Below, piece by piece: positions 46,859 through 64,000 of a stretch of DNA of 64,000 nt; position 1 is the first letter of the stretch, and every line of letters begins with the position of its first letter. The stretch lies in assembly GCF_003337575.1 (NCBI RefSeq), contig NZ_QPJM01000008.1, positions 62,001 through 126,000 on the forward strand, written 5' to 3'. This DNA is from Phyllobacterium bourgognense. GTDB taxonomy: Bacteria > Pseudomonadota > Alphaproteobacteria > Rhizobiales > Rhizobiaceae. The notes under the pieces were generated by a model. That model ran no database searches, was not told where the DNA came from, and saw only the letters and a program-made list of their open reading frames with translations. The translations under genes and the position numbers were made by a program.

Positions 46859-47223
46859 CAGGTCGGTTTTAGATGGCCGCTACGACGTTGGCTGTCAAGC
46901 GTCGACGACCGCGAACTATCTCTTCAAGAAACCAAGCCGCCCGTTCGTCGACAGGTAACTCACGATCAAGTGACAATCGCCTATTGTTTCAAGGGGGCGA
47001 CATGCCCATTTGAGAAATGAAAACAACGACTGATAGAGGACTTCCCCGCCGAACTACCCGCTTGAGCTGTATCGGGCCGGTGCCTGTCTCCGACGTTGAC
47101 ACGACTATCCGATTCGCTCATCTTCCTCCCGCTCTCTGACACGTTCGTGCGGTTGATCACGCTTGCTCAAGGGGCGACTGGGTGCGGGAAAGTGGACGTG
47201 GCTCGCATTTGCAAGGACGACGG
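46859..47223. other. Divergent promoter region between the UDP-sugar dehydrogenase and the adenylate cyclase
   Basis: These 365 bp contain no gene that I can support. A short inverted repeat TCAC-GATCAA-GTGA lies at 46960-46973, but its arms are arranged opposite to a CRP box. No TGTGA-N6-TCACA site was seen by eye. Confidence 0.4.
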
Positions 47224-48567
47224 ATGAGCACGACCCAATTTGATGTATCCAGCATACTTCTCGACAAGGTAGCCGACTGGCTCACGCAAACTTCGCTTGC
47301 CGGCGACAATCTGGAGACTATTGTACGCGGCTTTTGCGAACGTATCGCAGCGGCGGGCCTGCCGATCGCGCGCGTCAATCTCTCGTTCTCAATGCTGCAT
47401 CCGCTCTACGATGCGTTGGGATTCACTTGGAAGCGCGCGAGTGGTATGAGCGTGGAAGGTTACCGGCACGACCCAGCCGGAAAGCCTGAACGCTTCCTGT
47501 TGAGCCCCTATTTCTATCTCCTTAGCAATAATTTGGAGCATTTGCGGCGACGCATCGATGTGGATGGACCATTCGAATTCCCCGTCCTTGACGAGTTGAA
47601 ACAGGAGGGCGTCACCGATTATCTCGCTTTCTTGCAGCCTTTTGGCGGTCAGTCGACGCAAGGCATGATGGGTTCCTGGTCAACAGACAGCAAGGAAGGG
47701 TTTAGCGATGCCATGATCGCGGCGCTTCTGCGATTGCAGAACCATCTGGCAGTCGCCGCCAAAATGGCGGTCCTCGGCAAACTTGCGGATAACATGCTGA
47801 CCACATACCTCGGTGGCAATGCCGGCAAGCGTGTCCTGAACGGCCAGATCCGACGTGGTGATGGCGATACAATCCGGGCCGCTCTCGTCATGGGTGATAT
47901 GCGCGAGTCCACCGTCCTGGCCGAGAAAGAGGGCCGCCAGGCATATATCGATACACTCAATCATTTTTTTGATGCTATTGCAGCCCCGTTCAATCGGGGT
48001 GGTGGCGAAATTCTCAGCTTTATGGGCGACGGCTTTCTCGCGGTCTATCCTTGCGGTCGTCATAAGGATCCGTCGAAGATCGCCTGTCAAACCGCGCTCA
48101 ATGCGGTGTTCAAGGCGCAGGCACGCGTCGCTGAACTCAACGAGGAGCGGCGCAAGGATGGTCTTGGAGATATTCGTTATGGCATCGGCCTGCACGTTGG
48201 TAACGTCATGTTTGGGAATGTTGGTCTGAAGGACCGCTTGACGTTCTCGGCTTTCGGCTCTGCTGTAAACGAAGTACAGCGCTTACAGGGCCTCACCAAG
48301 AAATATTCGCGCGAGGTTATCGCCAGTCAGGCGTTTGCCACCTATTGTGGTGGCGACTGGGTTACCCTGGGCGAGGAAAAATTGCGCGGTGTTGGACAGA
48401 AAGTCACTGTTCTATTGCCAAAATCTTCTGAGCAGACAGGCCAGCTGGACGACGCCTATGATCAGGTCACCTATGATGGCCTGTCAGATGCAGAACAGGT
48501 TATGCTGTTGCACCGCGATACCAGGACCCAGGAGCGGCGGCCCATGATAGACAAATTCATGCAATGA
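47224..48567 (+). CDS. Class III adenylate/guanylate cyclase with N-terminal sensor region
   Basis: The 447-residue product has a ~190-residue N-terminal region with SMLHPLYDALGFTWKR, a feature of rhizobial cyclases, and a C-terminal catalytic domain (about 215-390). Candidate metal ligands are D225 (LVMGDMREST) and D269 (SFMGDGFLAVYP). The transition-state pair is N349 and R353 (SAVNEVQRLQ). It would make cAMP in the cytosol. The ATG at 47224 has AAGGA 6 nt upstream and is preferred to a GTG at 47182. Its stop overlaps the start of the polysaccharide lyase gene by 4 bp, so the two are co-translated. Confidence 0.9.
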   Translation: MSTTQFDVSSILLDKVADWLTQTSLAGDNLETIVRGFCERIAAAGLPIARVNLSFSMLHPLYDALGFTWKRASGMSVEGYRHDPAGKPERFLLSPYFYLLSNNLEHLRRRIDVDGPFEFPVLDELKQEGVTDYLAFLQPFGGQSTQGMMGSWSTDSKEGFSDAMIAALLRLQNHLAVAAKMAVLGKLADNMLTTYLGGNAGKRVLNGQIRRGDGDTIRAALVMGDMRESTVLAEKEGRQAYIDTLNHFFDAIAAPFNRGGGEILSFMGDGFLAVYPCGRHKDPSKIACQTALNAVFKAQARVAELNEERRKDGLGDIRYGIGLHVGNVMFGNVGLKDRLTFSAFGSAVNEVQRLQGLTKKYSREVIASQAFATYCGGDWVTLGEEKLRGVGQKVTVLLPKSSEQTGQLDDAYDQVTYDGLSDAEQVMLLHRDTRTQERRPMIDKFMQ

Positions 48568-49523
48568 CAGGAAAGATCATCGCAATGGCTCTCCTTGCCG
48601 CAACTCTCAACCTATCTGGTGCGGCAGCCGAGCCAGGAGGCGACACGCTTTTCGACGGTTTCGATGGCAAGGATTTTGCGGCAGGCGGCGGACTTTACTA
48701 CCGCAAGAATTTCGAGCAGCGCGCGGGTTCTTTCGAGTTCCAGTCCGCCGTCACGCAGACTGGCGCTGGCGCGCTGAAGTTGAGCGTCAAGCCATTTTGT
48801 CCAAACGTCAAACAGAACTGCAGCGAACGGGCAGAGATATGGGAGAGAACCGACCGTCGTGTGCCCTACACTGAGGGTGTTTGGTATGGTTTTGCTGTCA
48901 AATTCGCCGATCCAATCCCAGAAGGTGATCATCGATATCTCATCGCACAATGGAAGCGTGAGATCGGGCCCGACGCTGTCGGTGATTTTAGCCCTTTCCT
49001 GGCGCTACGTTTGAACCAGGGCAAGCTGTTCGCGACCGTCGAAACGAATTATGTCGCCCCTGCCAAAGCGGAAGGGGCGAGTACTGTCCAGGCCTGTGGA
49101 AACAACCAAACGCCGGTCTGGTTCCGACCGGACACAGACCAAATGCGTGCGCTGATAGCGACCGACGAGAACTGGACGCCGCAGGACGGTAGCCAGTTCA
49201 ATAGCTGCACCGATGCGATCACCGTGACCGACCACGGCAACAAGCTGCCTTCTCCAGATTCCGGCTGGATTGATTTCGCTATTTACACCAAGCCTGGCCC
49301 TGACGGGTCCGGCCATATCGAGATTTTCGCCAACAAGAAATGGATCGTGACAGTCAAGGGGCATATCGGTCACGGCGACAAAGGTCTTGGTAAAAATCAG
49401 TATTTCAAATTTGGCCCTTATAGAGCTGCCGACAAGACCGAGTGGACACTTTATTATGATAATTTCCGCCGTTCACCGCGCTGCGAAGACGTGCTTGGCG
49501 CCGGGGTTTGTCCCACGCCTTGA
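48564..49523 (+). CDS. Secreted polysaccharide lyase-like protein
   Basis: The 319-residue product has a signal peptide (TGKIIAMALLAATLNLSGAA) and a beta-rich domain. It contains CSERAEIWERTD, GVWYGFAVKFADPIPEGDHR, YLIAQWKREI and NQYFKFGPYRAADKTEWTLY, the jelly-roll pattern of Polysacc_lyase (PF14099) proteins related to glucuronan- and heparin-type lyases. Such enzymes cut uronic acid-containing glycans by beta-elimination. Four cysteines or more (FCPNVKQNC, RCEDVLGAGVC) suggest disulfides in the periplasm or outside. Overlap with the cyclase gene points to joint expression. Confidence 0.75.
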   Translation: MTGKIIAMALLAATLNLSGAAAEPGGDTLFDGFDGKDFAAGGGLYYRKNFEQRAGSFEFQSAVTQTGAGALKLSVKPFCPNVKQNCSERAEIWERTDRRVPYTEGVWYGFAVKFADPIPEGDHRYLIAQWKREIGPDAVGDFSPFLALRLNQGKLFATVETNYVAPAKAEGASTVQACGNNQTPVWFRPDTDQMRALIATDENWTPQDGSQFNSCTDAITVTDHGNKLPSPDSGWIDFAIYTKPGPDGSGHIEIFANKKWIVTVKGHIGHGDKGLGKNQYFKFGPYRAADKTEWTLYYDNFRRSPRCEDVLGAGVCPTP

Positions 49524-49709: not shown

Positions 49710-51601
<1,892 letters not shown>

Positions 51602-51608
<7 letters not shown>

Positions 51609-53527
51609 CGCGCCGTACTGTTCTTGGTACTTTTGGCCTCGGGGCTTTGGGTTGCGCGATGCTGCCGGATATGGCAAATGCGGCCGATCGTGATATTGAG
51701 CCGGAATATCTTGCGGATCAATTGCGTGCCCGCAGTTTGCCTCCCCTTCCCCAAAGACTGCCAAAGCGGCCACGCATTGTGCACCTCAAGGCAATGGGAC
51801 GAACCCCCGGACAATATGGCGGAACCGTTCGCACGATCATTGGCAGTGCCAAAGACATACGGTTCATGACCATTTATGGTTATGCGCGGTTGATTGGCTA
51901 TGACGAACGTCTGGTTTTCCAGCCTGATATTCTTGAGGGCTTTCAGTCCGACAATGATACCGTCTTCACTTTCACACTCCGCGAAGGCCACAAATGGTCG
52001 GACGGATCGCCATTTACCGTCGATGATTTCCGCTATTGGTGGGAAGACGTTCTGCTCAACAAGGATCTGACACCTGGCGGCGGCTCCATGGTGTTGCGTG
52101 TCGATGGAAATCTGCCACGCTTCGAAGTTCTCGATGAATGGACCATTCGCTACTCCTGGGACAAGCCAAATCCGGACTTCCTGCCAAATCTCGCCGGGCC
52201 GCAGCCATTGGTCCTCGTCGGGCCATCAGCCTATCTCAAGCAGTTCCACAAGGAGTATCAAGACGAGTTCCGGCTTTCGGCCCTGATGAAAGAAAACCGC
52301 GTCAAAAAGTGGGCCGACCTTCATATCAAGATGTCACGAACGTACCGGCCGGAAAATCCCAAGCTGCCGACGCTTGATCCTTGGCGAAACATGACAGCGC
52401 CACCGGCGGAGCAATTCATCTTCGAACGCAACCCGTTCTTCCACCGCGTCGACGAAAACGGCCGTCAACTGCCCTATATCGACCGCTTCGTACTCAATGT
52501 CAGTTCATCCTCCATTATTCCGGCGAAAACGGGGGCGGGAGAAAGTGATCTGCAGGCAACAGGCATTGATTTTGCCGATTACACCTTTCTGAAGGACGCG
52601 GAAGACCGCTATCCTGTGAAGGTCGATTTGTGGAAAATGACTCGTGGCTCGCGCGTCGCAATCCTGCCCAATCTCAATTGCGGCGATGACGTCTGGCGAG
52701 AGCTGTTCCGCGACGTGCGGGTGCGACGGGCTTTGTCGCTTGCCATCGACCGGCATGAAATCAATATGGCGGTATTTTACGGTCTCGGTGTTCCCAGTGC
52801 TGATACACTTTTGCCCGAAAGTCCTCTGTTCAAGCCCGAATATGCCAATGCGTGGATCAATCACGACACGGAACAGGCCAACGCGCTCCTTGACGAGGCC
52901 GGACTGCAAAATCGCGATGAGGACGGCATTCGCCTCCTCCCGGACGGCCGGCTAGCCGAGATCACCATCGAGACACCCGGCGAGAGCTCTGTGGATACGG
53001 ATGTGCTTGAACTCGTCACGGATCACTGGCGCAAGATCGGAATCGCGCTGTTCATTCGCACCTCCCAGCGCGACATCTTTCGCAGCCGTGCTATGGGCGG
53101 ACGCATCATGATGTCAATCTGGTATGGCATGGACAACGGCGTTGCAACTGCCGACATGAACCCGGGACAGCTGGCGCCCACCATGGACGATCAGCTGCAA
53201 TGGCCGCTCTGGGGAATGCATTACCTGTCGCATGGCAGCCAGGGCAAGGCAGCGGATCTTCCTGAAGCGATCGAGCTTACCGAGCTTTTGCGGCGCTGGC
53301 AGCGATCCGCGCACCTGGCGGAGCGCACTGAAATCTGGCAGCAGATGCTGGCCATCTATACCCAGCAGGTATTTTCGATCGGGCTTGTGAATGGCACGCT
53401 GCAACCGATCGTGCGTACATCACGTTTGCAGAACGTTCCCGAAAAGGGCCTCTACGGATTTGATCCCACATCCTATCTCGGCATTTACATGCCTGATACT
53501 TTCTGGCTGAGCGGGGAGCAGGTCTAA
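51602..53527 (+). CDS. Periplasmic substrate-binding protein, family 5 (peptide/oligosaccharide type)
   Basis: The 641-residue product starts with a twin-arginine-like signal (TRRTVLGTFGLGALGCAM) and has the SBP_bac_5 pattern: FTFTLREGHKWSDGSPFTVD, FIFERNPFFHRVDENGRQLP and VRVRRALSLAIDRHEINMAV. It is longer than typical DppA/OppA (about 540 residues), as in members that bind oligosaccharides or unusual ligands. The ligand is unknown. The GTG at 51602 overlaps the ATPase stop by 7 bp. Confidence 0.88.
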
Positions 53528-53531
53528 AGAA

Positions 53532-54530
53532 ATGCTGCGTTATATACTTTGGCGTATTGCTGCGATGATCCCCACCCTATTGGTCATCTCGGCCCTGGTC
53601 TTTACCATTATCGAGTTGCCGCCAGGCAATTTCTTCGAAAGCCAGATTGCGGAGCTTCGTGCCCAGGGTGAAACCGTCAATCTGCAGGAGATTGAGGAAC
53701 TGCGGCATCAATACGGTTTCGACCAACCGCCGGTGTTGCGATATTTCTATTGGCTAGGCGGCATGCTGCAGGGTGATTTCGGCTATTCCTTCGAGTACCA
53801 GCTGCCCGTGAGCGAGGTGGTGGGAGAACGGATGTGGCTGACAATCCTCGTCTCTTTTGTCACTATCCTGTTTACTTGGGTAATCGCCTTTCCTATCGGC
53901 ATGTACTCGGCCACGCATCAATACAGCTGGAGCGACTACGGCCTTACTTTGTTCGGGCTTCTCGGCATTGCTATCCCCAATTTCATGCTGGCGCTTATAC
54001 TGATGTACTTCGCCAATATCTGGTTCGGTACATCGATTGGCCATCTGATGGATCAGAAATTTCTGAACGAACCGATGAGCTGGGAAAAAGCGCGGTCTAT
54101 TCTCTCCCATCTATGGATTCCAGTAATTATTGTTGGCACCGCTGGCACAGCCGGCATGATCCGGCGTTTGCGCGCCAACCTTTTGGACGAGTTACAAAAG
54201 CAATATGTGATGACGGCGCGCGCCAAAGGGCTTCATCCGTTCCGTACGCTGGTCAAGTACCCGCTTCGAATGGCGCTGAACTTCTTCGTTTCCGATATTG
54301 GTTCCATTTTGCCGTCGATCATCTCCGGCGCTGAAATCACCGCAATCGTCCTTTCACTTGAAACGACCGGCCCGATGCTCATCAAGGCCCTGCAAAGCCA
54401 GGATATGTACCTCGCCGGCTCCTTTTTGATGTTCCTCGCATTCCTGACGGTTATCGGTGTGCTCATATCCGATATTGCGCTTGCCTTTCTTGATCCGCGC
54501 ATTCGCTTGCAAGGCAGGAGTACAAAGTGA
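53532..54530 (+). CDS. ABC transporter permease, DppB/OppB type
   Basis: The 332-residue product has about six membrane segments and the BPD_transp_1 pattern with the EAA-type loop RARAKGLHPFRTLVKYPLRM. The N-terminal block IPTLLVISALVFTIIELPPG is typical of the family. It forms the channel with the next permease. It lies 4 nt after the binding-protein gene and overlaps the next gene by 4 bp. Confidence 0.93.
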   Translation: MLRYILWRIAAMIPTLLVISALVFTIIELPPGNFFESQIAELRAQGETVNLQEIEELRHQYGFDQPPVLRYFYWLGGMLQGDFGYSFEYQLPVSEVVGERMWLTILVSFVTILFTWVIAFPIGMYSATHQYSWSDYGLTLFGLLGIAIPNFMLALILMYFANIWFGTSIGHLMDQKFLNEPMSWEKARSILSHLWIPVIIVGTAGTAGMIRRLRANLLDELQKQYVMTARAKGLHPFRTLVKYPLRMALNFFVSDIGSILPSIISGAEITAIVLSLETTGPMLIKALQSQDMYLAGSFLMFLAFLTVIGVLISDIALAFLDPRIRLQGRSTK

Positions 54531-55702
54531 CGGCACCGCTTCCTTCGCCCGGCGCGCCCCTGCAACATTATGTTTCCAACGCCCCGTTCGATCCGATGTC
54601 GGTCGAGGTGATGACGGACGCGCAGGCGAAAATCCATCTTGCATCGCAGACACGTTTGATGTGGTGGAAATTCAAGCGGCACAAGCTTGCCTTGGCATCA
54701 GGCATATTCTTGCTCTTGCTTTACGGCATGATCGTTATTGCCGAATTCCTGGCACCTTACAACTTGCACACCCGTAACGTCGACTTTATCCATTCGCCGC
54801 CACAGCGGGTGCATCTGTTCCACGACGGACAGTTTGTTGGACCCTTTGTTTATGGCCGGCAAATGAAACTTGATATGGGGTCGCTCAAGCGTATCTACAC
54901 AAATGATCGCAACGATGTTGAACCGCTTCGTTTCTTTTGTCGTGGTGACAGTTACCGCTTCTGGGGCCTGATCGAGGGTAATGTCCATCTTGTCTGCCCG
55001 GCGAAGGATGGCCAGATGTTCTTGCTCGGCACTGATCGTCTCGGCCGTGACGTGTTATCCCGCATCATCTATGGTGCGCGCATATCGCTGACTATCGGGC
55101 TCATCGGCATAACCATCAGTTTCGTTCTCGGCATCGTCATCGGCGGACTTGCAGGCTATCATGGCGGTTTGTTCGATCTGCTGGTGCAACGCGTCATCGA
55201 AGTGTTGCAATCATTGCCTAGCCTGCCGCTATGGATGGCATTGGCGGCTATCATGCCGGTGACGTGGAGTCCTATCCTGATCTATTTCGGCATCACCATC
55301 ATCCTCGGCATGCTGGACTGGACCGGGCTCGCTCGTTCCGTGCGCTCCAAACTGCTTTCGCTGCGGGAGGAAGACTACGTGCTCGCGGCGCAGTTGATGG
55401 GTGCCAGGAGCGGCCGGATTATCGGGCGGCATCTGGTGCCCGGCTTTATGTCGCATCTGATCGCCACGGCCACCATTTCCATACCTGGGATGATCCTCGG
55501 AGAAACCGCACTGAGTTTCCTTGGGCTTGGCCTCAGGCCCCCTATCACCAGTTGGGGTATCCTATTGACTGAAGCACGCAGCGTTAGTGTCATCGCCTTT
55601 TATCCTTGGCTGCTGTTTCCGATGATTCCTGTCATACTTGTTATCCTGGCGTTCAATTTCTTGGGAGATGGGTTGCGTGACGCAGCCGATCCCTACAGAT
55701 AA
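54527..55702 (+). CDS. ABC transporter permease, DppC/OppC type, with long periplasmic loop
   Basis: The 391-residue product has a cytosolic N-terminus, a first membrane segment (LASGIFLLLLYGMIVIAEFL) and then a ~110-residue non-membrane insertion (about 85-185). The canonical core follows, with LGTDRLGRDVLSRIIYGARI and GMLDWTGLARSVRSKLLSLR. OppC-type proteins are usually ~300 residues, and the extra length lies in this loop, which would face the periplasm and may contact the large binding protein. Confidence 0.9.
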   Translation: MTAPLPSPGAPLQHYVSNAPFDPMSVEVMTDAQAKIHLASQTRLMWWKFKRHKLALASGIFLLLLYGMIVIAEFLAPYNLHTRNVDFIHSPPQRVHLFHDGQFVGPFVYGRQMKLDMGSLKRIYTNDRNDVEPLRFFCRGDSYRFWGLIEGNVHLVCPAKDGQMFLLGTDRLGRDVLSRIIYGARISLTIGLIGITISFVLGIVIGGLAGYHGGLFDLLVQRVIEVLQSLPSLPLWMALAAIMPVTWSPILIYFGITIILGMLDWTGLARSVRSKLLSLREEDYVLAAQLMGARSGRIIGRHLVPGFMSHLIATATISIPGMILGETALSFLGLGLRPPITSWGILLTEARSVSVIAFYPWLLFPMIPVILVILAFNFLGDGLRDAADPYR

Positions 55703-55789
55703 GGGAAACGAGAATCCGATGAGTTCGCATTCTCACCATCGTTTCGAATGCACTGCGCGGGTCAACCCGCAAAACAAGGGGTTTTGACC

Positions 55790-57001
55790 ATGATGCGGCG
55801 TTTCGAAGATGCCCGGATCTTGATGTATAGCCACGACACCTTCGGCCTTGGCCATTTGCGGCGGTGCAGGACGATTGCCCATTCGCTTGTCGAGGACTAC
55901 CGCGGGCTCAATATCCTGATTATATCCGGCGCAACTATCGCGGGCGCGTTCGATTATCGCGCCCGCGTCGATTTCGTGAAGGTGCCGAGCGTGATCAAGC
56001 TTCGCAATGGCGAATACACTTCGCTTGCACGCCACATCGATCTGCATGAAACACTGAAGATGCGCCAGTCGATCATCCGGCATACGGCCGAGACTTTTCA
56101 ACCGGATATTTTTATCGTTGATAAGGAACCGATGGGGCTGAAAGGCGAAGTGGAAGAAACCCTCGCCTATCTTAAATCTCGCGGCACGACACTTGTCCTT
56201 GGCCTGCGAGAGGTCATGGACGCGCCGCATCTGCTCGAGGCCGAGTGGAAGAACAACAACGTGATGCGCAAGATCGATCAGTTCTACGACACGGTTTGGG
56301 TCTATGGCCCGCCGGATTTCTACGATCCGCTCATCGACCTGGATGTGCCGGTCACCCTACGCGACAAGATGAAATTTGTCGGCTTCCTGCAACGGAGCCT
56401 GTCGAACGACAACACCCCAACCCATGTTCCCGAGGGCGATTATATTCTGGTGACTACGGGCGGCGGTGGCGATGGGGCCGACCTCGTGCACAATGTCATC
56501 CACGCCTATCAGCAGGATCCGACCCTTCAGCACAAGGCATTCATAGTGCTCGGCCCGTATATGCCGGCGAAGCAGCGGGCAAAACTGGTGAAGAAGGGCG
56601 GCAAAATTCCCTACATCCAGGTTATCGAGTTCGATAATCGCATGGAAGAATTGATCGCGGGTGCAAAGGCCGTTGTCGCCATGGGCGGCTATAACACCTA
56701 CTGCGAGATTCTGTCTTTCGACAAGCCGGCGCTGATCGTCCCCCGCGTCCTGCCACGCGAAGAGCAACTGATCCGGGCCACACGCGCCGCCGAACTCGGT
56801 CTCATCGAAATGCTGCTGCCAGAGGAAGCCGAGGACCCCTTGCGCTTTGCAGAGGTGCTCAAGCGCTTGCCGGACCGTCCCCCGCCATCGCAAACCGGCA
56901 AGGGTGAAGGCATGCGGCTGGAGGGTCTCGTGCATATTTCCGAGATCGTCGGCGACTGGCTGGACGAACGCGAACAGCCATTGCCCGCAGTCGCGGAATA
57001 A
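55790..57001 (+). CDS. GT28/MurG-like glycosyltransferase (COG4671 type), first copy
   Basis: The 403-residue product begins with an Rossmann-like domain (ARILMYSHDTFGLGHLRRCR). The C-terminal nucleotide-sugar half has VTTGGGGDGADLV and GAKAVVAMGGYNTYCEILSF, then KPALIVPRVLPREEQLIRAT. It fits the predicted glycosyltransferases of the COG4671 type; donor and acceptor are unknown. The ATG at 55790 has AAGGG 9 nt upstream and follows the permease operon by 87 bp. Confidence 0.8.
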   Translation: MMRRFEDARILMYSHDTFGLGHLRRCRTIAHSLVEDYRGLNILIISGATIAGAFDYRARVDFVKVPSVIKLRNGEYTSLARHIDLHETLKMRQSIIRHTAETFQPDIFIVDKEPMGLKGEVEETLAYLKSRGTTLVLGLREVMDAPHLLEAEWKNNNVMRKIDQFYDTVWVYGPPDFYDPLIDLDVPVTLRDKMKFVGFLQRSLSNDNTPTHVPEGDYILVTTGGGGDGADLVHNVIHAYQQDPTLQHKAFIVLGPYMPAKQRAKLVKKGGKIPYIQVIEFDNRMEELIAGAKAVVAMGGYNTYCEILSFDKPALIVPRVLPREEQLIRATRAAELGLIEMLLPEEAEDPLRFAEVLKRLPDRPPPSQTGKGEGMRLEGLVHISEIVGDWLDEREQPLPAVAE

Positions 57002-57010
57002 GAGAATAGC

Positions 57011-58255
57011 TTGTCAATACGCCTCAAGACATTGGTGATTCTGAAGGGCTATCCGCGCCTTTCGGAAACATTCATCGCACAGGAACTGCTCGGACTGGAG
57101 CGGGCAGGCTTCGACCTGACACTGATCTCCATGCGTAAGCCGACGGACAAGAAGCGCCATCCAATCCACGATGAGATCAAGGCGCGTGTCGTCTATCTGC
57201 CCGAATATCTCCACGAAGAACCAATTCGCGTGTTCCGTGCCCTCATGGCAGCGCGGAAGAAACCCAATTTCAGGCCGCTTCTCCTGCGGTTCTGGAAAGA
57301 CCTGCGTCGCGATATTTCGCGCAACCGCATCCGCCGTCTCGGCCAGGCACTTGTCCTTGTCCATGAATGGCCGGACAAAGGTGAATGGCTGCATGCCCAT
57401 TTTATCCATACGCCGGCTTCCGTCGCACGCTATGCCAGCATCATGACCGATGTGCCCTGGACCTGTTCGGCCCATGCCAAGGACATATGGACCTCCCCCG
57501 ACTGGGAACTGATCGAGAAACTCGGCGCGGCGCGCTGGAGCGTCACCTGCACGCGCGCTGGCTTCGACCATATGCGTGAGCTGACAAACCGAAAAGAGCA
57601 GGTGCATCTGAGTTATCATGGTCTTGATCTTGCCCGCTTCGGATATTTCTCCGGCGTCCGTCCGAGCCGCGACGGTTCGGACGCCTCGAATCCCGTGCAG
57701 ATATTGAGCGTCGGCCGTGCCGTGCCGAAGAAGGGCTATGACATCCTCTTGCAAGCACTGGCGCTTCTGCCTGCCCGTCTACACTGGAGGTTTGTTCATA
57801 TTGGCGGGGGCGACGAACTGGCGCGATTAAAACCCCTTGCCGACAAGCTCGGCATCGCGGAGCGCATCACCTGGAAAGGCGCGCTTGCGCAGGAGGATGT
57901 CCTTGGCCACTATCGCAGCGCCGATATATTTGCCCTGGCTTGCCGGGTCGCGGCAGATGGAGACCGCGACGGCTTGCCCAATGTCCTTTTTGAAGCCGCC
58001 AGTCAAAACCTTGTCTGCATCTCGACGAATATTTCCGGCATACCCGAGCTTTTGACCGGCGGAGAAAACGGTTTCGTCGTCCCTCCGGAAGATCCCCGAC
58101 TGCTGGCGGTTGCACTTGAACGGGCGATCCGCGAACCTGACCTTCGATACCGCTTGGGCAAGGCCGCCGAAAAACGGGTACGCGAACACTTCGACCACAA
58201 TTCAAGTATCCGCCAATTGACCCGGCTTTTTGAAAGCGAATGGCAAAAACCATGA
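57011..58255 (+). CDS. Glycosyltransferase family 4 (GT-B)
   Basis: The 414-residue product has the N-terminal block LKGYPRLSETFIAQELLGLE, known in exopolysaccharide transferases of the WcaL/EpsD kind. The GT4 donor site follows: ILSVGRAVPKKGYDILLQAL and LPNVLFEAASQNLVCISTNI with the second Glu in SGIPELLTGGENG. It transfers a sugar from a nucleotide donor in the cytosol. The start is a TTG at 57011, 9 nt after the previous stop. It overlaps the next gene by 4 bp. Confidence 0.88.
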   Translation: MSIRLKTLVILKGYPRLSETFIAQELLGLERAGFDLTLISMRKPTDKKRHPIHDEIKARVVYLPEYLHEEPIRVFRALMAARKKPNFRPLLLRFWKDLRRDISRNRIRRLGQALVLVHEWPDKGEWLHAHFIHTPASVARYASIMTDVPWTCSAHAKDIWTSPDWELIEKLGAARWSVTCTRAGFDHMRELTNRKEQVHLSYHGLDLARFGYFSGVRPSRDGSDASNPVQILSVGRAVPKKGYDILLQALALLPARLHWRFVHIGGGDELARLKPLADKLGIAERITWKGALAQEDVLGHYRSADIFALACRVAADGDRDGLPNVLFEAASQNLVCISTNISGIPELLTGGENGFVVPPEDPRLLAVALERAIREPDLRYRLGKAAEKRVREHFDHNSSIRQLTRLFESEWQKP

Positions 58256-59382
58256 GCAAACCGCGCGTCCTTTTCTACGTCCAGCATCTTCTTGGCATAG
58301 GTCACCTTGCCCGCGCCAGCCGCGTCGCCTCGGAGCTCGCCGCTGACAAGTTCGACGTCACGCTTGTAACAGGGGGATCGAAGGTTCCGGGTTTTCCAGG
58401 ATCGGATGTCAAATTTGTCGCGTTGCCCACACTTGTTGCGGACAATGCTGGATTTTCAGGTCTGGCAGATGCGTTTGCTAATTCGGTTGACGATGAATTC
58501 CTGGCTCGCCGCCGCGATCTCTTGCTCGAAGCCTTTCACCAAATCAGCCCATCTATCGTCATCACGGAAGCGTTCCCTTTTGGGCGCAGGCAGATGCGTT
58601 TCGAACTTCTGCCATTGCTGGGTGCCATCAAGGCAACGTCGCCGCGGCCAAAGCTTCTGAGCTCAGTTCGTGATATCCTGCAGGAGCGCACGAAGCCCGG
58701 GCGCGACGAAGAGACGGTTAGCATTATCAACGCACACTTCGACCATATCCTGGTGCACGGAGACCCGTCATTTGCAACGCTTGCCGATACGTTTCCGCTC
58801 GCAAGGAAGATCGCTGGCAAGATTATCTATACCGGTCTGGTTGCGGGTCCTGACCCAGCAGAACCTTCGGAAGTCTTTGATATCGTTGTGTCTGCCGGTG
58901 GCGGCGCAGTGGGGCTCGCCCTGATCCGCTCAAGTCTGGAAGTGGCAACGCAATCGGCATTCCGGGGATCGTGGTGCCTGATCACCGGACCCAACCTGCC
59001 GGAACGCGATTTTAATGCCTTGTTGGCAGATGCACCCCGCAATGTGAGCGTCGTCCGTTTCCGCCAGGATTTTCCATCATTGCTCAAAGGAGCCGAGCTT
59101 TCGATTTCGCAGGCGGGCTACAATACGGTATGCGATATTCTGCGCGCGCGGTGCCGTTCCATCCTTGTTCCCTTCGCTTCCGCAGGCGAAACTGAACAGA
59201 GCGTGCGGGCCGCACGATTGGAAGCCCTCGGCCTCGCCATCGCCTTGCCCGAAAACGGCCTCAACGCGGATATTCTCGGCAGTGCCCTAGAAGCCGCGTT
59301 GGCACAGCCAAAGCCATCGTCACATAGGCTCGATCTGAATGGTGCCGAGCGCACGGCTGGGGTGTTACGGAGTCTCCTCTAG
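58252..59382 (+). CDS. GT28/MurG-like glycosyltransferase (COG4671 type), second copy
   Basis: The 376-residue product resembles the gene at 55790 in layout. It opens with VLFYVQHLLGIGHLARASRV, has SAGGGAVGLALIRSSLEVAT in the middle and SISQAGYNTVCDILRARCRS near the donor site, then LVPFASAGETEQSVRAARLE. Its ATG at 58252 overlaps the GT4 stop by 4 bp; an ATG 12 nt upstream is also possible. Together the three genes would add at least three sugars to a common acceptor. Confidence 0.8.
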   Translation: MSKPRVLFYVQHLLGIGHLARASRVASELAADKFDVTLVTGGSKVPGFPGSDVKFVALPTLVADNAGFSGLADAFANSVDDEFLARRRDLLLEAFHQISPSIVITEAFPFGRRQMRFELLPLLGAIKATSPRPKLLSSVRDILQERTKPGRDEETVSIINAHFDHILVHGDPSFATLADTFPLARKIAGKIIYTGLVAGPDPAEPSEVFDIVVSAGGGAVGLALIRSSLEVATQSAFRGSWCLITGPNLPERDFNALLADAPRNVSVVRFRQDFPSLLKGAELSISQAGYNTVCDILRARCRSILVPFASAGETEQSVRAARLEALGLAIALPENGLNADILGSALEAALAQPKPSSHRLDLNGAERTAGVLRSLL

Positions 59383-59544: not shown

Positions 59545-59622
59545 ATGTACTCTTCAAACGTTTCAGTATTTGAAATTCCTGCTGAATTCGCAGCCCCTGG
59601 TCGCCCATGGAAACAAGTCTAA
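59545..59622 (+). CDS. Possible 25-codon leader ORF overlapping the ABC gene start
   Basis: ATG at 59545 has GGAG 7 nt upstream and opens a 25-residue frame (YSSNVSVFEIPAEFAAPGRP in the middle). It stops at 59622, 16 bp after the ABC gene start at 59607. The ABC gene itself has no clear ribosome-binding site, so translational coupling through this ORF is possible. There is no direct evidence that it is expressed. Confidence 0.3.
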   Translation: MYSSNVSVFEIPAEFAAPGRPWKQV

Positions 59623-62321
59623 CACGCTATATCTGGTCGAACACGCGGCTGCAGCAGATATGGATTCTGTTCGTCGTAGCTGTCTCGATGATTCCGTATT
59701 TCATGTCTTTCGATCTGCCAAAACAGATCGTCAACGGTCCCATCCAGGGTAACGGGTTCGAGACACCCGGCGCGACGCGCACCTTCATGCATCTCGAATA
59801 CGACCTCCCCGCGCTCGGCAAGGTGGTGTTTTTCGATGGCCTTGAGCTTACCCGTTTCCAGACATTGATGGCATTAAGCCTGGTTTTCCTGCTGCTCGTC
59901 ATCATCAACGGTTTGTTCAAGCTTTATATCAACACCTACAAGGGCCGTCTCGGCGAACGCATGTTGCGACGAATTCGCTTCGAGTTGATTGATCGCGTGC
60001 TGCGCTTTCCACCAGCGCAATTCAAGCGGGTAAAATCCGCTGAAATTGCGACGATGATCAAGGACGAAGTAGAACCTATGGGCGGCTTTACCGGGGATGC
60101 CTTCGTTCAACCGGCATTGCTAGGCGGACAAGCTATCACTGCCCTCGTCTTCATCATCATGCAGAATTTCTGGCTTGGTATGATCGCTGCAGGAATTGTC
60201 GCGGTCCAGGGCGTCGTGATTCCCCGCATGCGAAAACGCTTGCTTGAACTCGGACGTCAACGTCAGCTCACAGCGCGGGAATTGTCTGGCCGTGTTGGTG
60301 AGATAGTCGACGGCATTGGTACCATTCACGGTAACGACACGTCGAACTTCGAACGGGCCGATATCGCGTCGCGTTTGGGCCTTATCTTCTCGATCCGGTA
60401 CGATCTCTATCAATGGAAGTTCCTGGTCAAATTCATCAACAATTTCCTCGCACAGGTCACCCCGTTTCTATTTTATTCGATCGGCGGTTTTCTGGCGTTG
60501 CAAGGAAGACTCGATATCGGCCAGCTTGTTGCCGTGATCAATGCCTACAAGGATCTCCCGGGGCCGTTGAAAGAGCTGATCGATTGGGACCAGGCCCGTC
60601 AGGATGTCCAGGTCAAGTACAACCAGGTGGTCGAACAATTCAACGTCGATATGCTCGTTGATCCGAAAATTCAGGCTCTTGCCCCCGATCCCGTCAACCG
60701 TCTTGAGCATTCGCTGCACGCCGTCAACCTGACACTTTCCGACGACAGCGGTGCGCCCTTGCTCAGACATGTCACGCTGGAGATCAAACCGGGCGAAACC
60801 GCCGCAATCGTCGGCAACAGCGGAAGCGGGGCTGAGGCCCTCGCCGAGGCCTTTGCCCGCCTTATCTGGCCCGAGCAGGGCCGCATCACCATCGATGGCA
60901 AAGACATCCTCGAACTGCCAGAATCAGTAACCGGCCGCCGCATCGCCTATGCGGCGTCCGATACTTATTTCTTCTCCGGAACCTTGCGGGACAATCTGCT
61001 TTATGGCCTCAAGCATGCGCCCTTGACCACGGTTGAGTACGAGGGAGCGAAAGCCGCCAAGAACAGATGGAACATCAACGAAGCGCGCCGTGCGGGCAAT
61101 CCCGAACTCGACGTTAACAGCGACTGGGTGGATTATGTCTCCGCGGGCGTGACGGGGCCTGACGATCTCTTCAAGGTTGTGCGCCCGGTCCTTGATGCCG
61201 TTCTGATTTCTCAGGACATTCTCGACATGGCATTGCGCTCCACTGTCGTCATCGAGACACACGCCGATTTGACCGATCGCATCGTCGAGGTGCGTCAGGC
61301 CCTGCGCAAACGATTGAAGAAGGAAGATCTCGACGACCTCGTCGTTCCGTTCAAGCTGGATGAGTATAACCCTCAAGCCACCGTTGGTGAAAACCTGCTG
61401 TTCGGCAGCATGAGGCGGCCAATGATGACGAACCGCAAACTGGCGGCGCATCCTTATTTCCGCTCGGTGTTGCGCGAGAACGACCTTTACATCGATCTTT
61501 ATACTATGGGTCTGGAGATCGCGGCCAATGCGGTCGAGCTGTTCGAGGATCTGCCGCCAGATCATCCGTTCTTCCAGCAACTGACCTTCATGACCGCCGA
61601 TGACATTCCGGCCTATCAGGTGTTGCTGCAAAAATTGCAGGGCCGCGGTATCGACGCGGCGTCGGCAGACGAACGTACAAGTATAATTCGCCTGAGCTTC
61701 TCCTACATCGAGCCGAGGCATCGCTTTGGTCTTCTCAACAGCCAGCTCATGGCCAAGATCGTCGATGCGCGCGCACGTTTCCACCAGAATATGCCGGACG
61801 ATCTCAAAGCTGTTATCGAACGCTATGATCCGGAACGCTTTATCTCATCGGCGACGCTTCTGGATAATGTCCTCTTCGGTAGGATCGGCTTCACCCAAGC
61901 CGACGGCTCGGATCGCATCCGTACGATTTTGCGCGACCTGTTCGACCGACTCGGCCTGTTCGAAAGTGTGCTTTCGATAGGCATGGATTTCGATGTCGGA
62001 TCCGGTGGCAAGCGATTGACCAATGTGCAGCGCCAGAAGCTCAATGTCGCGCGTGCACTGCTCAAGCGTGCCGATTATATAATATTCAACCGTCCATTGC
62101 CGGCACTTGACCAGCGCGTACAAGACCATATCACGCACAACATCATGGAGGACCTGCACGAAGAGGGCCACGCTCCTGCGATCATCTGGGTGCTGTCCAA
62201 CACTGCACTTGCCAATCTGTTCGATCGCGTGATTGTATTCGACAAGGGGACATTGGTCGAAGAGGGAACGCACGCGACTCTTTTGGAGAAAAACGGTATA
62301 TTCAAGGAGCTGGTGTCATAA
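59607..62321 (+). CDS. ABC exporter-like protein with degenerate, insertion-bearing nucleotide-binding domain
   Basis: The 904-residue product has an ABC exporter membrane domain (about 15-340, with RLGERMLRRIRFELIDRVLR) followed by an NBD-like region (about 370-904). Every catalytic motif is changed. Walker A reads GNSGSGAEAL (403-412; Lys replaced by A409). The Q-loop reads AASDTYFF. The signature is LTNVQ (804-808). Walker B is YIIFNRP (824-830; the Asp-Glu pair is N828-R829). The H-loop His is N865. About 300 residues are inserted between Walker A and the signature. Three related blocks occur: SGTLRDNLLYG (457-467), ATVGENLLFG (591-600) and ATLLDNVLFG (749-758). ATP hydrolysis is unlikely, so a structural, gated or regulatory role is inferred. 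The ATG at 59607 is the start. Confidence 0.85.
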   Translation: METSLTRYIWSNTRLQQIWILFVVAVSMIPYFMSFDLPKQIVNGPIQGNGFETPGATRTFMHLEYDLPALGKVVFFDGLELTRFQTLMALSLVFLLLVIINGLFKLYINTYKGRLGERMLRRIRFELIDRVLRFPPAQFKRVKSAEIATMIKDEVEPMGGFTGDAFVQPALLGGQAITALVFIIMQNFWLGMIAAGIVAVQGVVIPRMRKRLLELGRQRQLTARELSGRVGEIVDGIGTIHGNDTSNFERADIASRLGLIFSIRYDLYQWKFLVKFINNFLAQVTPFLFYSIGGFLALQGRLDIGQLVAVINAYKDLPGPLKELIDWDQARQDVQVKYNQVVEQFNVDMLVDPKIQALAPDPVNRLEHSLHAVNLTLSDDSGAPLLRHVTLEIKPGETAAIVGNSGSGAEALAEAFARLIWPEQGRITIDGKDILELPESVTGRRIAYAASDTYFFSGTLRDNLLYGLKHAPLTTVEYEGAKAAKNRWNINEARRAGNPELDVNSDWVDYVSAGVTGPDDLFKVVRPVLDAVLISQDILDMALRSTVVIETHADLTDRIVEVRQALRKRLKKEDLDDLVVPFKLDEYNPQATVGENLLFGSMRRPMMTNRKLAAHPYFRSVLRENDLYIDLYTMGLEIAANAVELFEDLPPDHPFFQQLTFMTADDIPAYQVLLQKLQGRGIDAASADERTSIIRLSFSYIEPRHRFGLLNSQLMAKIVDARARFHQNMPDDLKAVIERYDPERFISSATLLDNVLFGRIGFTQADGSDRIRTILRDLFDRLGLFESVLSIGMDFDVGSGGKRLTNVQRQKLNVARALLKRADYIIFNRPLPALDQRVQDHITHNIMEDLHEEGHAPAIIWVLSNTALANLFDRVIVFDKGTLVEEGTHATLLEKNGIFKELVS

Positions 62322-62412
62322 GGGGGCAACATGAGATCTTTTGAGAATTCAGCTTTACGCCCGTCTGGCTGAAATTATCGAAAAGTCTCTATTTAGAGGG
62401 TTGTGGACGTTC

Positions 62413-62877
62413 ATGCTGCTGAAAGATGAAGTTGAAATGTTGCGGCGGGTACCGCTGTTTTCGGGCGTTGCGCCGGCCAAGCTCAAGCTTCTGGCCTTCA
62501 CATCCGAGCGCGTCAGCTACAAATCCGGCCAGACACTGTTTCGCCAGGGTGATCCAGCCGATGCAGCCTATGTCATCCTCACCGGCGGCGCTGATATTCT
62601 CTCCGATTCCCCAAGCGGCGAGATCAAGGTTGCGGAGATAGAGCACGATTCCATCGTTGGTGAAATCGCGATCCTTTGTGATGTTTCGCGAACTGCGACG
62701 GTCCGCGCAAATTCTGCACTCGAGGCCTTGCGCATCAGCAAGGATCACTTTCTCAAGCTCCTTAGTGACTATCCGGAGATGACCATCGAGATCATGCGGG
62801 TTCTTGCCGACCGTTTGAGTCACACAACCACCGAACTCAGCGAAGCGCGCAGCAAACAGAAGCAGGCAGCGAAATAA
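62413..62877 (+). CDS. Stand-alone cyclic-nucleotide-binding protein
   Basis: The 154-residue product is one cNMP-binding domain. It opens with EVEMLRRVPLFSGVAPAKLK and has the phosphate-binding cassette IVGEIAILCDVSRTATVRAN, with E84 and R93 in the positions that bind the cyclic phosphate and ribose. A C-terminal helix follows. No helix-turn-helix is present, so it is not a CRP-type transcription factor. It lies 91 nt after the ABC-like gene and is probably co-transcribed with it. I chose the ATG at 62413 because the domain starts there. A TTG at 62341 would add 24 residues. Another ATG at 62331 behind AGGGGG opens only a 13-codon frame. Confidence 0.85.
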   Translation: MLLKDEVEMLRRVPLFSGVAPAKLKLLAFTSERVSYKSGQTLFRQGDPADAAYVILTGGADILSDSPSGEIKVAEIEHDSIVGEIAILCDVSRTATVRANSALEALRISKDHFLKLLSDYPEMTIEIMRVLADRLSHTTTELSEARSKQKQAAK

Positions 62878-62904: not shown

Positions 62905-64000
62905 TCAATAGGCTGGCCGGTCTATATTCCGCGTGACTGACCCGCTGGTCAGATCAACCAGGAAGTCACGCGACGGCATATCCGACAGATATCGCCCCAT
63001 CATGCGCAATATGCGTGCGAATTTTCCCTGAGCACCGCCAATCTCGAGTGCAGAAGAGCCGGCGTAAATCTCGATCAGCAAACGATAGGCCGCAAGCCGA
63101 GCCGGCGAAATGCGATTGAGTGCCATTTCACTGCCCATGCGCAGCCGGTACCAATCGCCAAGCAGGCTGAGTACCGGGATCGAATCCAGTTGTTCAATCG
63201 CGTTTGCGTTGTAATCATTTGAAGTTTTGCCAGCGCGTTCGGCATGAATAAGCGCAACAGTGTCCTCGAGCGGAAATGGCTGCGCACATTGGCCGAGCAC
63301 GTATAAATCTCCGAGATTGAGCCGCGACATCGTCCTTGCCATGTCATTCGGCCATTCGCGGCGCAAATAGCGATGCACGACCAATTGATCCACATGCTCC
63401 GACAGGAAATCTCCGTAGTTGGCAGCATCCAGCATATGACCCGTCTTTTTGCCTGTGACATTGATCTCGATACGATATTGCCGATTGATGGCTGGATCGA
63501 TTGGCAGATGCTCGATGCTGGCCGTTTCAACCTTTAACGCCATATCTTCCAGCGTTATCACCTTGAAGGCCGCAGGAAAGGCAGCAAGCGACGGCACGCC
63601 GATGTTGAGGAGGTAATCTTTCCCCTGCCGGACCAGCGCCGTATCATTGACGTGAAGATGTCCGCTGAAGTGTATACCGATGCCCGCATCGATGGCCGCA
63701 CGCGCCACCTCATCCGTCGGTGTCCGTTGCGTGGCGATCGTTTCACCCATTAGCGATCGTTCGTCCTCCGCTGTGCCATTGAGCATATCCAGCAACGGAT
63801 AGTGCGAGAAGGTCAGCAGCCGCTTGCCACCTCGCCTGGCTCTGCTGGCGACATCTTTTGCCCACTGCAGTATGAAACGCTTATGCTTGAGCAAGGCATT
63901 CCAGCCGGCATGGGTGCTGTCGACGAATGCGCCCGCGTCGCCTTTGGCAAAAACACCGTTGCGCGGCTCGAAGACATTGGCATCGATCATCAGCAGCCAG
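62905..64000 (-). CDS. Calcineurin-like metallophosphoesterase, 5' end beyond the window
   Basis: At least 364 codons are present and the frame stays open to the end of the window, so the start lies beyond 64000. The motifs LLTFSHYPLLDML and IHFSGHLHVND (GHxH) are the C-terminal metal-binding blocks of calcineurin-like phosphoesterases. The remaining ~200 residues form a separate C-terminal part with QYRIEINVTGKKTGHMLDAA. The substrate is unknown; a cyclic nucleotide is possible given the neighbours, but the sequence does not show this. The gene converges on the cNMP-binding gene with a 27-bp gap. Confidence 0.8.
   Translation of the reverse strand, partial: WLLMIDANVFEPRNGVFAKGDAGAFVDSTHAGWNALLKHKRFILQWAKDVASRARRGGKRLLTFSHYPLLDMLNGTAEDERSLMGETIATQRTPTDEVARAAIDAGIGIHFSGHLHVNDTALVRQGKDYLLNIGVPSLAAFPAAFKVITLEDMALKVETASIEHLPIDPAINRQYRIEINVTGKKTGHMLDAANYGDFLSEHVDQLVVHRYLRREWPNDMARTMSRLNLGDLYVLGQCAQPFPLEDTVALIHAERAGKTSNDYNANAIEQLDSIPVLSLLGDWYRLRMGSEMALNRISPARLAAYRLLIEIYAGSSALEIGGAQGKFARILRMMGRYLSDMPSRDFLVDLTSGSVTRNIDRPAY

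Follow-up and report, generated by a model that had tools for sequence, protein, structure and literature searches.

An ABC exporter homologue with a degenerate ATP site, a repeat-bearing insert and a conserved cyclic nucleotide-binding partner in Phyllobacterium bourgognense

What is left for an ATP-binding cassette (ABC) exporter to do once its ATP site has degenerated? The question is raised by a 64,000-nucleotide stretch of the Phyllobacterium bourgognense genome (assembly GCF_003337575.1, contig NZ_QPJM01000008.1, positions 62,001 to 126,000), hereafter the window, which encodes an exporter-like half-transporter, P0001, directly followed by a protein with a cyclic nucleotide-binding (CNB) domain. 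Exporters of this type are generally viewed as ATP motors, and where their sites are degenerate, the usual explanation is that each dimer retains one that still works. As judged from its sequence and structure model, P0001 is a descendant of MsbA-type exporters that has retained the membrane domain and a complete fold of the nucleotide-binding domain (NBD), whereas its clade almost certainly no longer hydrolyzes ATP. We therefore consider P0001 to be probably a signal-controlled, ATP-independent membrane machine. The relevant features, in window coordinates, are:

59607..62321, + strand: P0001, ATPase-degenerate ABC-exporter half-transporter, 904 residues
59607..60641, + strand: transmembrane domain, residues 1–345, from Pfam match and family conservation
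60702..61016, + strand: N-terminal NBD half, residues 366–470, from Pfam match and structure model
60813..60839, + strand: Walker A position, GNSGSGAEA, Lys and Ser/Thr lost
60942..60962, + strand: Q-loop position, Gln replaced by Ser451
60975..61007, + strand: repeat block 1, SGTLRDNLLYG, residues 457–467
61017..61841, + strand: insert, residues 471–745, about 275 residues
61377..61406, + strand: repeat block 2, ATVGENLLFG, residues 591–600
61851..61880, + strand: repeat block 3, ATLLDNVLFG, residues 749–758
62016..62030, + strand: signature position, LTNVQ, residues 804–808
62076..62093, + strand: Walker B position, YIIFNR, with N828 at the Asp and R829 at the Glu position
62196..62201, + strand: H-loop position, S864-N865, His-Arg lost
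62341..62877, + strand: single-CNB-domain protein (PF00027, E 2.2e-20), conserved partner

The P0001 frame starts with ATG and is free of internal stops. Pfam ABC_membrane (PF00664, the six-helix type) matches residues 85–311 (E 1.5e-16), and ABC_tran matches residues 386–484, covering only positions 1–80 of the 137 in the profile because the NBD is split. The structure model has a complete NBD fold without the insert and can be aligned with exporters including MsbA, a comparison that is uninformative on the fold of the insert itself. The best NCBIfam match is likewise MsbA (TIGR02203), at 193.5 bits against a family cutoff of 602 bits. Compared with a functional type-I ABC exporter, P0001 has the membrane domain and the NBD fold, but not the Walker A, Walker B, signature, Q-loop or H-loop motifs. 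We note, as a separate feature of the membrane domain, that the loop between the first two transmembrane helices (residues 46–81, 59742–59849) is, at about 35 residues, long for an exporter and contains strands in the model, and is possibly a small periplasmic element.

An earlier note, made from the letters of this DNA, had described a Walker A without its Lys, Asn-Arg in Walker B, an LTNVQ signature and missing Q-loop Gln and H-loop His in an otherwise recognizable NBD, and our analysis bears out each of these points. Its broader statement that every ATPase motif is lost holds for the catalytic residues, but not for the D-loop Asp (ALD, D835) or the signature Gln, both of which are kept. In Walker A (G403-N-S-G-S-G-A409-E410-A411) the glycine scaffold is retained, with Lys and Ser/Thr absent; the signature (L804-T-N-V-Q808) departs from LSGGQ with the Gln in place; and the family alignment puts S864 at the H-loop His position, where other members read ALHR. 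For comparison, among 19 ABC open reading frames from 18 other regions of the same genome, GxxGxGK[ST] is present in 18, DE[AP] in 16, the signature in 16 and the H-loop in 12, although the patterns are approximate and importer ATPases are included among the 19.

The same losses recur in close homologues. Our near set comprises 80 loci, kept of 134 relatives from one genome-contig scan, in records of rhizobia and their kin; their best segments show 64–98% identity, and the matches cover the query in full or almost in full. Across the 81 rows formed by these loci and the window, one of which (L026) is truncated before the last motifs, six catalytic residues (Lys and Ser/Thr of Walker A, Gln of the Q-loop, Asp and Glu of Walker B, His of the H-loop) are each found in 0 of 81. 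This is the recurrence that the earlier note had asked to see tested, and it marks the losses as fixed and not random. At Walker B, 79 rows have NR and one has NQ (the motif is missing from the truncated row), the signature reads LTNVQ in 29 and LTGGQ in 24, and in L040 the Walker A loop is itself shorter by five residues. The ratio of nonsynonymous to synonymous substitution rates (dN/dS) against the near relatives L002, L003, L006 and L010 is 0.02–0.03 in the membrane domain and 0.04–0.06 in the NBD and insert, and against the more distant Rhizobium loci L011 and L012 it is 0.04–0.17, with the NBD and insert at 0.10–0.17 where computable; dS exceeds 1 throughout, and its saturation leaves some regions without a value. 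On these ratios the coding region is under purifying selection, which is somewhat weaker on the degenerate NBD than on the membrane domain. In the deposited record of Sinorhizobium meliloti 1021, the pSymB copy (L149:15001-17713) lies in two frames; two other S. meliloti records also have it in two pieces, and five have one unbroken match.

Between the two halves of the NBD lies the insert, which the earlier note had put at about 300 residues: it is present, but its size is about 275. The three blocks resembling SGTLRDNLLYG lie exactly where they had been reported, and the internal duplication that they suggested gains support from profile–profile comparison on the 165-row alignment described below (blocks 2 and 3, E 7.9e-17; blocks 1 and 2, E 3.2e-8; blocks 1 and 3, E 1.1e-7; all values for single pairs). 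Compared as profiles, residues 551–600 also match 710–758 (E 7.7e-16). As controls, each block was set against 11 further 90-residue segments of P0001, 33 comparisons in all, of which the best four for each block were listed; the best free of overlap reached E 0.014, while one at E 2.9e-6 is unfair in having ten residues in common with the query. Within the insert, residues 600–689 match blocks 1 and 3 (E 3.1e-5 and 1.4e-4), and residues 640–729 match neither (E 0.18 and 0.075). In the structure model, blocks 2 and 3 each have a short helix between two strands, and block 1 consists of one strand and one helix; modeled alone, the insert is poorly predicted (mean predicted local distance difference test score 48.8). 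It has no PDB sequence match up to E 10 and no Pfam match above chance level. Because block 3 continues into the signature, we read the insert as the Q-loop/helical-subdomain segment present in two additional copies. The alternative that it contains one or two partial NBDs, which had been put forward for checking by structure prediction, we reject, since the modeled NBD is complete without it. N596, N754, R563 and R722 are invariant in the 165-row alignment and N463 nearly so, such that the Asn of each block and two linker Arg residues rank among the family's least variable positions, which argues that constraint has shifted from the ATP site onto the repeats.

A second, near-constant feature is the CNB protein directly downstream of P0001, which has kept E108 and R117 at its ligand site (GEIAILCDVSRTATV), residues that we take to be the Glu and Arg of the CNB phosphate-binding cassette. 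In 218 of the 231 family loci a CNB domain is either fused or encoded downstream in the same orientation; elsewhere it occurs in only 2 loci, with 3.0 Mb covered. It is adjacent in 79 of the 80 near loci, and in the 151 distant loci it is adjacent in 122, fused in 17 and absent from 12 under a rule allowing up to 3,000 bases. The total of 218 rests on this looser rule; a tighter one gives 113 adjacent, 17 fused and 21 without. The gap to a nonfused CNB domain has a median of 54 bases and a maximum of 1,349. Both Glu and Arg are present in 80 of 80 near cases (79 loci and the window), 116 of the 122 distant adjacent cases and 13 of the 17 fusions, and the 18 control ABC regions, drawn from the window's own genome, contain no CNB gene. 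The partnership with the neighboring protein that the earlier note had offered as one example is thus strongly supported, and we consider it very likely to be a functional one, with the fusion in some lineages the strongest sign in these sequences that the two would act as one unit.

To describe the wider family, we combined the window with 14 members chosen from the 80 near homologues and 150 distant loci into a set of 165 rows, in which some distant loci are redraws of the window's own family and L149 is excluded for its two frames. By the insert profile, 31 of the 398 Pseudomonadota genomes sampled contain the family, every one of them alphaproteobacterial, and so do 131 of 385 sampled alphaproteobacterial genomes (87 of 277 genera); relatives outside Alphaproteobacteria, sought with this profile, were found in none of the 398. 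Among PLSDB plasmids, P0001 matches 339 records at E up to 1e-30, headed by Rhizobium (144) and Sinorhizobium (80). In the 165 rows, K409 is retained in 78, Ser/Thr at 410 in 12, Q451 in 25, D828 in 27, E829 in 71 and H864 in 41. Homologues with canonical residues, which had been named in advance as evidence against a loss of the site, are therefore found residue by residue, while the full set is found in 0 of 165: none of the six residues is kept by 48 members, one by 37, two by 38, three by 28, four by 13 and five by 1. Frequent distant forms of the motifs are GSGK[DE] and [NS]EA, and G408 (150/165) and D835 (145/165) are widely retained. On a quick membrane-domain tree of 164 rows, the K, Q, D, E and H positions each change state 15–21 times, counts that are rough on trees with long branches and in which gain and loss are not separable. 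The window's clade there comprises 25 rows (98 in the Shimodaira–Hasegawa-like approximate likelihood-ratio test), with all five residues absent. This varied retention and the repeated changes of state point to a partly degenerate ATP site as the family norm, to changes that have recurred, and to the window's clade as standing at the far end. The membrane domain is the best-conserved part of the protein (mean column entropy of 1.57 bits, against 2.07–2.09 elsewhere), with near-invariant polar residues by the fifth transmembrane helix (K271, 157/165; K275, 156/165; N278, 157/165). A subgroup of five loci (L163, L165, L166, L177 and L178) has a very divergent membrane domain and no recognizable signature or Walker B, and four of the five are without a CNB gene.

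A membrane-domain profile (E up to 1e-35) further finds relatives that have no NBD. Our set of 11 such proteins (10 of the 11 places listed by the profile, and L152) spans 323–437 residues from stop to stop, with one cut by a contig end. Outside Alphaproteobacteria the profile finds one NBD-less protein, at a contig end. The 11 proteins score 144–309 bits, compared with at most 27 for canonical exporters of the window's genome and at most 47 for PDB exporters, and group with the family apart from canonical exporters (support 98/98, on long branches). The tree suggests nested loss of the NBD for the form found in copper operons, but an arrangement with all full-length members in one clade survives an approximately unbiased test (p 0.156), and loss is therefore not told apart from primary absence. 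Two of these proteins (L374:3515-4726 and L375:3542-4816) are encoded in operons of the copper-resistance type, alongside a multicopper oxidase and CopB, and a third (L152:9773-11077) lies among copper genes; a literature search on NBD-less exporters in copper operons returned nothing. A second, shorter group (L378–L383, 323–379 residues) has varied neighbors, including carboxyl transferase and L,D-transpeptidase genes.

The genes upstream of P0001, all on the same strand, bear on what such a protein might act upon:

47182..48567, + strand: adenylate/guanylate cyclase (PF00211, E 1.2e-6)
48564..49523, + strand: polysaccharide lyase-like protein (PF14099)
49710..55702, + strand: oligopeptide-type ABC importer, with a double ATPase (49710–51608), SBP_bac_5 (51602–53527) and two permeases
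55748..57001, + strand: glycosyltransferase 1 (PF04101, GT28 C-terminal domain), conserved neighbor
57011..58255, + strand: glycosyltransferase 2 (PF00534), conserved neighbor
58240..59382, + strand: glycosyltransferase 3 (PF04101, GT28 C-terminal domain), conserved neighbor

Rhizobium leguminosarum WSM1325 has the gene order of the window minus the lyase, and in Azospirillum thermophilum a CNB-fused member is adjoined by importer and glycosyltransferases. Among the distant loci, 80 of the 112 that span 8 kb and 11 of the 28 that span 20 kb contain homologues of the glycosyltransferase trio (E up to 1e-15), against 0 of the 18 control ABC regions, all from the window's genome. A cyclase gene comes first in the cluster not only in the window but also in R. 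leguminosarum and S. meliloti, and its product might supply the CNB protein with ligand locally.

Taking these observations together, we put at roughly 45% the explanation, taken as a whole, that P0001 is a CNB-gated, ATP-independent homodimer that moves the product of the linked glycosyltransferases. P0001 would form a homodimer whose NBDs serve as a regulatory or structural cap, not as a motor; the CNB protein, or the fused domain, would dock on it, and cyclic nucleotide binding would alter the conformation of the membrane domain; this change would gate ATP-independent movement, either downhill or driven by an ion gradient, of a glycan or glycolipid made by the neighboring glycosyltransferases. 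Of the separate parts, we lean toward translocation as opposed to a purely scaffolding role, and give even odds to the glycosyltransferase product being the cargo. Several observations weigh against this explanation. Some distant members retain much of the ATP site, among them L273 with five of the six catalytic residues, so the whole family need not be inert, and the Mesorhizobium members L038 and L064 keep LTGGQ, near to a working signature. No CNB domain is in reach in 13 of the 231 loci, and glycosyltransferase homologues are absent from 32 of the 112 distant 8-kb and 17 of the 28 distant 20-kb loci, so that gene proximity is no proof of cargo. In addition, lipid A flopping by MsbA is reported to be only ATP dependent (PMC8660845), a finding that disfavors any easy passage of a bulky glycolipid without ATP. 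Finally, we found no transport, binding or gating data for the family and no published description of it, in a literature search that was thin on subscription journals.

A scaffold is the alternative that survives best, although we consider it unlikely. P0001 would then move nothing and act as a platform holding the glycosyltransferases and the CNB protein, or as a product sensor, which would suit the lost ATPase residues, the long insert and the linkage to glycosyltransferases, two of the three having GT28 C-terminal domains like MurG. However, it is the membrane domain that is best conserved, its near-invariant polar residues exceed what an anchor should require, and many loci that keep P0001 have no glycosyltransferases.

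Less likely still is that P0001 is the inactive half of a heterodimer, with a canonical half-transporter encoded elsewhere supplying one working ATP site. Heterodimers with degenerate sites, such as TM287/288, TmrAB and TAP, retain one working site. Like P0001, they combine substituted catalytic residues with a retained NBD fold, and degenerate sites are common among heterodimeric exporters (PMC7756269); moreover, L038 and L064 keep, in their LTGGQ, the very part that such a partner would borrow. In contrast, all sites of a P0001 homodimer would be dead, and the signature in the window is itself LTNVQ. A rule based on Walker A and hydrophobicity, which recognized 14 of the 18 control regions, finds a second exporter-like frame in only 2 of the 231 loci (L157 and L170), and a less sensitive rule, blind to NBD-only matches, in 1; this argues against an active half that is linked, the only kind of partner on which the count bears.

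A gated channel, in which the CNB protein and not ATP would open a CFTR-like pore built from the exporter fold, we regard as improbable. CFTR (ABCC7) is controlled by phosphorylation. It resembles P0001 in putting the exporter fold to another use with an added regulatory region, as the regulatory partner and extra inserted domain here would also allow, but it is an ATP-gated anion channel, whereas P0001 has lost the ATP site and has a CNB protein as partner, and we saw no sequence feature pointing to a pore or an ion. Very improbable is noncanonical binding or slow hydrolysis of ATP at the P0001 site: the Walker A glycines and D-loop Asp do persist, as the retention of G408 and D835 attests, but all six catalytic residues are missing from the close homologues, and L040 has dispensed with part of the Walker A loop. 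That P0001 is a decaying pseudogene has a negligible chance, given near-full-length matches in 80 near loci and a dN/dS of 0.02–0.06 to near relatives, despite the lost motifs, the two-frame copy of S. meliloti 1021 and the truncated L026.

Returning to a CNB-gated, ATP-independent P0001, none of the nearest systems has, as far as is known, its combination of a degenerate site in each subunit, a helical triplication and a CNB partner. MsbA-type exporters (TIGR02203) share the membrane domain and NBD fold, but P0001 falls far under their cutoff, has lost the catalytic residues, and has an insert and a CNB partner. HetC of Nostoc also combines an ABC exporter with a CNB-type domain, which is needed for HetC function; it differs (PMC10986499) in its N-terminal CNB domain and C39 peptidase, in binding ppGpp in vitro, from which it follows that CNB-type domains can bind another ligand, and in an essential ATPase Glu. 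P0001 has neither of these HetC-type Pfam domains and has Arg829 at the Glu position. A precedent for the proposed ATP-independent movement is the membrane domain of MsbA engineered to lack its NBD, which mediates ΔpH-dependent ethidium transport (PMC4979069); these MsbA and LmrA membrane-domain forms likewise work without an NBD, but they are man-made, whereas the NBD-less and NBD-degenerate forms described here are natural. The family thus offers natural material for asking whether exporter membrane domains can function free of ATP, which that study addressed with engineered truncations.

With the family in a third of sampled Alphaproteobacteria genomes, the degenerate site is normal in it, the fold is kept and a second-messenger-type domain is coupled to it; in plant-associated rhizobia, a cyclic nucleotide-type sensor is thereby linked to a surface-glycan-like locus. 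A further generalization, which we hold to be doubtful, is that these proteins form a widespread alphaproteobacterial class in which the cyclic nucleotide has replaced ATP as the switch: they would be CNB-gated glycolipid flippases or scramblases, a repeat-enlarged NBD dimer would dock the CNB protein, and the NBD-less relatives would be the end point.

Two further observations concern other genes. The msbA2 operon of S. meliloti (SMb21188–21191) places an ABC exporter beside glycosyltransferases on pSymB (PMC3687685); we considered and rejected the identity of MsbA2 with the P0001 gene, as a fragment inside SMb21188 lies at 938 kb and the P0001 homologue at 841.7–844.4 kb of pSymB. In the window, the CNB gene is followed by an open reading frame on the − strand (62905–63990) for which neither Pfam nor NCBIfam gives a match up to E 1 and a homologue of which stands beside the CNB gene in 12 of the 80 near loci.

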